The notes under the pieces: model-generated
What the model saw: the letters and a program-made list of their open reading frames with translations, nothing else
Told to the model about the DNA's origin: nothing
Database searches by the model: none
Source: Opitutus sp. GAS368
Lineage (GTDB): Bacteria > Verrucomicrobiota > Verrucomicrobiia > Opitutales > Opitutaceae
Assembly: GCA_945903465.1 (NCBI GenBank)
Contig: CAMDOF010000013.1
Location: 20,927 to 84,926, forward strand
Length of the DNA stretch: 64,000 nucleotides
Direction of reading: 5' to 3'
In this document: piece by piece, positions 50,185 to 51,480 of the stretch
Position numbering within the stretch: position 1 is the first letter of the stretch
How the letters are laid out: each line of letters starts with the position of its first letter
Translations under genes and position numbers: made by a program

Positions 50185-50954
50185 GAGAAGGCTCGATCGT
50201 TAGGCCCCGCACCCATCTTGGCAAACGAAGAATCTGAGGTGCAAAATTTACCCAGCCGTTTTCACGAACGGAACGTGCGCGCGACAAGGGAGGAAATAGC
50301 TCGCCGATCATGGTCCTCGGCCATGGGCGAGGTGAAATCGGTGGTCGTCTGCCGGGGGCGAGAAGGCCCATGAATCAAGCGGGGTTGGCTCGAAGGAGGC
50401 CTGGGCAAGGCGCAAAACTTTCCGGATCAGCTGGGCGGCCTCGTCCGGCAGCAGGAAACCTGACACACATCATTTGCCGTGAGCGGCGGCGCATTTCTGG
50501 GCGAAGCTTTTTTGAAGCAGCGATGCGGCCAGCGCTTTTTCAGCCAGTCGGTCTGGTTTTCCCAGAGCGCTCGGCGGATGGTTTTCGCCCTTACCCTCGT
50601 TGACCAGGCGAAATGGCAGCCCGCTGGCCCAGGCAGCAATGGCCCGTGCCGTGCCGGTCGTCGACGACACGGGTTTCTCCGATGCCGGATACCCAGAAAA
50701 ATCGGCCGCTGATTCTCGCAAACCTTAAAAAGGTTGTAACTGCTCAGGGTGACAAAATCTGACGGTGAACGCGCAAGTTACGCGAAGAAAGCCGAATTTT
50801 ATTCTGAACTCAGAGTGCGGAGAGAGGGTAGCCTTCGCCCCTGGAGGAAAGCAGGGTGATTCAAGGCCGGGAGTTGGGTGGGGGGGAGACCTCGCGTTGA
50901 TCCGGACTTTGCCGACCGAGCCTAGCGAGTGGAGCCGGACGCGGCTGTCGGCGA

Positions 50955-51147
50955 AAGTGGTCCGCACAGTCCCCTGTGCGGAAGGGTCGTCTCCTGACTC
51001 AGAGCCCCACAGTGGACTGTGCGGACCACTTTGGTTACCGTGCGCACGAACGCCGGGGATGTCGGCGTAAGTGGTCACCGCACCGTCCGCTGTGCGGAAG
51101 GGGCGTCTCCTGACTCAGCGCCGCACAGTGGACTGTGCGGACCACTT
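50955..51147. repeat. Two tandem ~78-bp palindromic elements (50955-51031 and 51069-51147)
   Basis: Copy A: aagtggtccgcacagtcc...ggactgtgcggaccactt (18-bp perfect inverted repeat); both share ctgtgcggaagg[g]gcgtctcctgactcag core. Confidence 0.92.
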
Positions 51148-51480
51148 TTGGTCACCGCGCCAGAGGTGACAGGTGCTCGTAATTACCGGGAATCGACCTG
51201 AGCAGTTACGAAAAATTCACGCACCTCCGGAACCGACCCGTCTTTTCCCGAAAATAAAATCTCCGGATAAAACCCAGAAAAATTCCAGAGGCCTTAATTT
51301 CATTTACCCGACCAGGCTGCTAGTCCAACGGCAACCTTGCGCCGGTTCTCATCCACGATTGAGCAGGGAAGCGCCGTGGTCGTTTACCCATTTGCGCCCG
51401 AGCTGCCGCGGTCCATCGACCCGGCACCAACCCCAATGACCATTCTCCGGGCAAAACTTGCCGTGCCCGTTGCCCCGCGC

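Follow-up and report, generated by a model that had tools for sequence, protein, structure and literature searches.

The two palindromes found upstream of secA in the window (the whole 64,000-nucleotide stretch of Opitutus sp. GAS368 DNA that was analysed) sit mid-way in a 474-bp non-autonomous element, at positions 50736-51209. Almost certainly, this element is a MITE, an internally deleted derivative of an IS66-type IS that carried a DruA-domain ORF and tnpC. It is identified as a member of a MITE family because it is multi-copy, has perfect terminal inverted repeats (TIRs), is flanked in sibling copies by 8-bp target duplications and has an identifiable type of parent IS. The ends of the element, the target duplications of its siblings, the type of its parent, the deletion junctions and the copy number could each be demonstrated. 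The original prediction, which had described the palindromes as MITE-like DNA and possibly a new family, was therefore right in substance.

The hairpin pair and the limits of the element

Hairpin A contains a perfect 19-nt inverted repeat, AAAGTGGTCCGCACAGTCC (50954-50972) and GGACTGTGCGGACCACTTT (51014-51032), within 28-nt arms that are 93% complementary and enclose a 23-nt loop. Hairpin B matches A at 93% across 71 nt. The left bases of the two hairpins are ∼114 bp apart and their cores 116 bp apart, B having a 2-nt insertion, and the core itself (GTCTCCTGACTCAG) occurs exactly twice within the window. Both fold very stably, with z scores of about −6.2 to −7.7 for A and −5.1 to −6.2 for B, and in each case none of 200 dinucleotide shuffles folded as well. 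Hairpin A begins 770 bp upstream of the start of secA (50184, minus strand). In these respects, i.e. an inverted-repeat palindrome, a diverged second copy ∼114 bp downstream, a core kept in both and a position ∼770 bp upstream of secA, the original prediction was accurate. It also placed the hairpins correctly, but its coordinates were incomplete, as genomic homology spans 50736-51209.

These limits were defined by comparing 20 fetched genomic regions with the window. Copy after copy, the shared sequence begins at 50736 and stops at 51209/51210, and exactly at these points lie 13-bp perfect TIRs, GTAACTGCTCAGG and CCTGAGCAGTTAC. The organization of the window copy is as follows.

50728..50735, plus strand: left flank AAAAGGTT, the expected position of the target duplication, matching 51210-51217 (GAAAAATT) at 5 of 8 positions
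50736..51209, plus strand: complete non-autonomous IS66-type element (MITE), 474 bp, delimited by the homology limits of dozens of copies, with TIRs at both ends
50736..50748, plus strand: left TIR GTAACTGCTCAGG, perfectly inverted at 51197-51209 and unchanged in the complete IS L110
50765..50949, plus strand: remnant of the left end of the parent IS with the start of a DruA-domain (DUF4338) gene, frameshifted, matching L110
50939..50953, plus strand: internal-deletion junction (GCTGTCGGCG), where the first part of the druA-like gene meets the last part of tnpC, the commonest junction type in the genome
50954..51032, no strand assigned: hairpin A, 28-bp near-perfect arms and 23-nt loop; left arm formed by tnpC tail codons, loop with the TGA stop
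51033..51068, plus strand: linker with tnpC 3′ codons (GCACGAACGCCGGGGATGTCGGCG) that recur in the tandem unit, in-frame tnpC before the hairpin in L073 and L094
51069..51148 (approximate), no strand assigned: hairpin B, tandemly duplicated from A, its left arm longer by a 2-nt insertion
51149..51196, plus strand: right-end non-coding region of the IS, common to dozens of copies
51197..51209, minus strand: right TIR, GTAACTGCTCAGG on the minus strand (CCTGAGCAGTTAC), a perfect inverted repeat of the left TIR

Among the fetched loci, both ends are present in ∼21 copies, and the right-end module (51149-51196) has 48 matches covering at least 90% of its length. The target-site duplications that had been proposed as a check were found. 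Indeed, seven of the two-ended sibling copies display perfect 8-bp duplications (GAGATCTC, TTTAAATG, GATTATTT with an offset of one base, GTTTCCTC, AGATAAAA, TATTTTTT, and AAAATCAG), and an additional copy, L047, matches at 7 of 8 positions. For the window copy, whose flanks agree at 5 of 8 positions, a duplication is not demonstrable. Mean pairwise identity is 91-94%, about equal for the left end, the right end and the linker. The element transposes as a unit. The IS66 family is characterized by inverted repeats starting with GTAA and by 8-bp direct repeats (PMC11946415); both GTAACTGCTCAGG ends of the window copy begin with GTAA, and 8-bp duplications are found in the siblings and in L110.

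The element is overlapped by two ORFs, one of 117 aa at 50725-51078 (minus strand) and one of 101 aa at 50765-51070 (plus strand), which recur over other copies (e.g. L038). They are element remnants, which could be misannotated as hypothetical proteins. In many copies (L045, L051, L054, L055, L057, L058, L060, L061, and L063), the right end is followed by the same sequence, GCGATTTCTTGAGAGCCTGA, which shows that tandem duplication has also affected a larger unit of ∼315 bp, consisting of linker, hairpins and right end.

The source genome that was searched comprises 8.16 Mb in 343 contigs and is about 93% complete. For the 79-bp hairpin it gave at least 145 full or partial matches on the two strands together, and for the 15-bp arm at least 143 matches with no more than one mismatch. 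The 13-bp TIR occurs 47 times among the genome matches listed, and once across 26 other genomes of the genus together. The original prediction had looked to further copies in the genome and to conservation in relatives; the former abound, but sequence-similarity searches, which strongly diverged forms could escape, found no hairpin copy in 94 relatives and no whole element in 251 other genomes of the family. As judged from these searches, the family is apparently restricted to one species. The position of many copies at contig ends (e.g. in C277, C280, C261, C159, C92, and C211) suggests that these copies interrupt the assembly and that their true number is higher.

The parent IS and its internal deletions

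In several longer copies, codons of an IS66 transposase (TnpC, PF03050) directly precede the hairpin, and such TnpC remnants adjoin it in C190, C60, C9, and C37. The clearest TnpC-bearing copy is L073, a 703-bp unit that consists of the left end, TnpC codons, one hairpin and the right end, and is flanked by the duplication AGATAAAA. No intact tnpC was found in the genome, a 343-contig draft in which many copies lie at contig ends, but only fragments.

A scan of GTDB genomes identified a relative in an Opitutaceae MAG, L110, with a TnpC that is 70% identical; over the 117 aa of TnpC in L073, identity with L110 is 66%. L110 is a complete IS of 2606 bp with the same 13-bp TIRs and an 8-bp duplication (TCCTGGAA). 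It encodes a DruA-domain ORF (PF14236, E value 4.9e-40) and an IS66 tnpC (PF03050, E value 7.3e-53; NF033517, E value 1.4e-90), and has no hairpin. The DruA-domain (DUF4338) ORF (L110:723-1697; PLTZ01000067.1) lies upstream of tnpC, where it replaces the usual tnpA/tnpB. Among 15 fetched DruA loci in relatives, one (L130) has a relative of tnpC nearby and 14 do not, so we do not propose a DruA-IS66 association in general.

The left 200 bp of the window element match the left end of L110 and the start of its DruA-domain gene. The 185-bp remnant shares 66% DNA identity with the L110 left end, and a tblastn comparison aligned window GGDLALIRTLPTEPSEWSRTRLSAKV with L110 GADLDLIRRLQVEHREWGRTRLSEEL (E value 1.6e-6). 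The window element therefore consists of the 5′ end of such an IS, with its left end and the first part of the DruA-like gene, fused to the last part of tnpC. TnpC (PF03050) is found between the ends in the longer siblings and in L110, and has been deleted in the window copy.

At least five types of internal-deletion junction exist among the copies in the genome (L073, L046, L052, and L078 serve for comparison), and the window type is the commonest. Copies without a hairpin also exist, namely L063 and the first units of L045 and L070, in which the base of the left arm meets the right end at a short GGTC-like word common to both. This is the pattern expected of palindrome deletion.

In the scenario that we favor, the insertion of the element between hupE and secA would be the work of an IS66-type TnpC that acted in trans on its GTAA ends, and would have generated an 8-bp duplication that has since decayed in the window copy.

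Origin and possible roles of the hairpin

In the longer copies, the last codons of tnpC make up the left arm of the hairpin (e.g. ...TARKNAGDVGESGPHSPLCGRGVS, then the stop), and the conserved loop core GTCTCCTGACTCAG holds the TGA stop codon. The tail of TnpC differs in L110 and in more distant relatives, which have no such hairpin, so the hairpin was gained in the local lineage. Because the TnpC-bearing copies have it as well, this gain preceded the formation of the MITEs, and by then the palindrome would already have lain at the end of tnpC in the local IS lineage, with the TnpC tail as its left arm and TGA in its loop. The number of hairpins per copy is 0, 1, 2, 3 or more. The tandem unit of ∼114 bp includes tnpC codons, which argues for local duplication and points to a spread of the hairpin inside the element by tandem duplication. 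Multiplication by such duplication and loss by palindrome-prone deletion, both during replication, could account for hairpins accumulating or vanishing inside elements.

In short arrays inside elements (L044:2506-2650, L045:3998-4209, L057:3988-4455, and L077:1900-2340), spacers of 34-38 bp separate copies of a 35-bp inner palindromic repeat, GTGCGGAAGGGGCGTCTCCTGACTCRGAGCCGCAC. A CRISPR-like reading of this 35-bp repeat and its ∼36-bp spacers was rejected, as spacers are shared by different loci and repeated within one array, and the observed arrays lie within IS66-type elements.

We consider the hairpin mostly a passenger, which may at most provide a weak structured 3′ end that blocks tnpC read-through. 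The most serious competing view, unlikely but with some substance, is that it is a regulatory structure of the IS, a terminator or anti-read-through device at the tnpC stop, retained in the MITEs by selection for this function. Its location exactly over the tnpC stop codon in the longer copies, its very stable fold and its retention in most copies across different deletion types are what one would look for in such a structure. However, compensatory changes affect one pair versus 2.3 expected from shuffles (24 hairpins), which is no excess and provides no evidence of selection on pairing, no terminator-like T-tail was found at the hairpins, the related complete IS L110 does without a hairpin, and so do the hairpin-less copies. 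The case for a strongly constrained RNA or terminator function is weak because both compensatory change and a T-tail are lacking. Both an intrinsic terminator and a selected RNA structure were therefore rejected as candidates, the former since no terminator-like match occurs at the hairpins, and the latter since compensatory changes are fewer than in shuffles. An Rfam search found no family above the gathering score, only sub-threshold matches to miRNA hairpins.

Somewhat less probable is that the hairpin is a second, nested mobile element of another kind, which inserted in the 3′ end of the ancestral IS66 tnpC and replaced its last codons. The TnpC tail does depart from those of L110 and a second relative (G068) just where the palindrome starts, and the copy number within arrays varies. 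On the other hand, no hairpin was clearly seen outside an IS66-type context, and the 114-bp tandem unit holds tnpC codons, which makes the arrays duplications of local sequence. We regard it as improbable that the hairpin and the 35-bp inner repeat are, instead of a passenger, an actively evolving structured module that aids the spread of the element or controls tnpC expression.

Least of all do we expect the palindromes to be REP/BIME sequences mobilized by a RAYT (Y1 transposase) with incidental IS66 ends: the hairpins do occur in tandem pairs and arrays like BIMEs, and the genome has 12 matches to PF01797 (Y1/RAYT-like; including C5:102939, C65:5878, and C100:16111), but homology reaches far past the hairpin to fixed TIRs, and most contigs with the core also carry element ends. 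Only one PF01797 match, that in C100, is near a hairpin copy (∼350 bp), and this copy is unremarkable, its IS66 ends being flanked by a separate perfect 8-bp duplication, GAGATCTC, as befits an independent IS66-type insertion, so the search for a cognate RAYT that the original prediction had proposed turned up none. In addition, REP palindromes carry a GTAG or CGTC tag at one end (PMC3733652); the bases of the hairpin read AAAGTGG/CCACTTT, and neither tag is present there in the aligned copies. The REP/BIME-type assignment that had been put forward was thus not upheld, the palindromes being internal modules of a larger transposing unit.

Relation to known systems

Taken together, these findings define a new MITE family, which goes back to an IS66-type IS that carried DruA and in which an internal palindrome multiplies inside the element. 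We found no description of an IS66-derived MITE, or of an IS66 element with DUF4338, in the open-access literature, most subscription journals being outside this scope. The family documents clearly how several independent internal deletions can reduce an IS66-type element to a MITE. It illustrates how a palindrome that terminates a transposase gene can spread genome-wide and then pass for a family of REP sequences or sRNAs. Moreover, it serves as a warning that small ORFs called over the copies, and contig breaks at the copies, are artefacts of the element.

With the IS66 family, the element shares inverted repeats starting with GTAA, 8-bp duplications and, in the longer copies as in L110, a TnpC with PF03050. 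It differs in that the window copy encodes no transposase and that L110 has a DruA-domain ORF instead of the usual tnpA/tnpB; the local copies in turn differ from L110 by their hairpin at the end of tnpC. The resemblance to REP/BIME sequences associated with RAYT is limited to short intergenic palindromes that are often paired, whereas here the palindrome lies inside a TIR-bounded element with 8-bp duplications and has neither a GTAG/CGTC tag nor a cognate RAYT. The closest parallel is with bacterial MITEs derived from IS, such as MITEPsy1 (PMC3189936) and MITECca01 (PMC9769881). Like these, the element is short (474 bp), non-coding and without a transposase gene, exists in dozens of copies, has the TIRs of its autonomous parent (identical in L110), and is presumably mobilized in trans by the parent transposase. 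Unlike these two, it derives from IS66 and contains variable internal tandem palindromes (0 to 3 or more). Mobile DNA of this kind is ordinary, but the repeating hairpin that it contains here is unusual.
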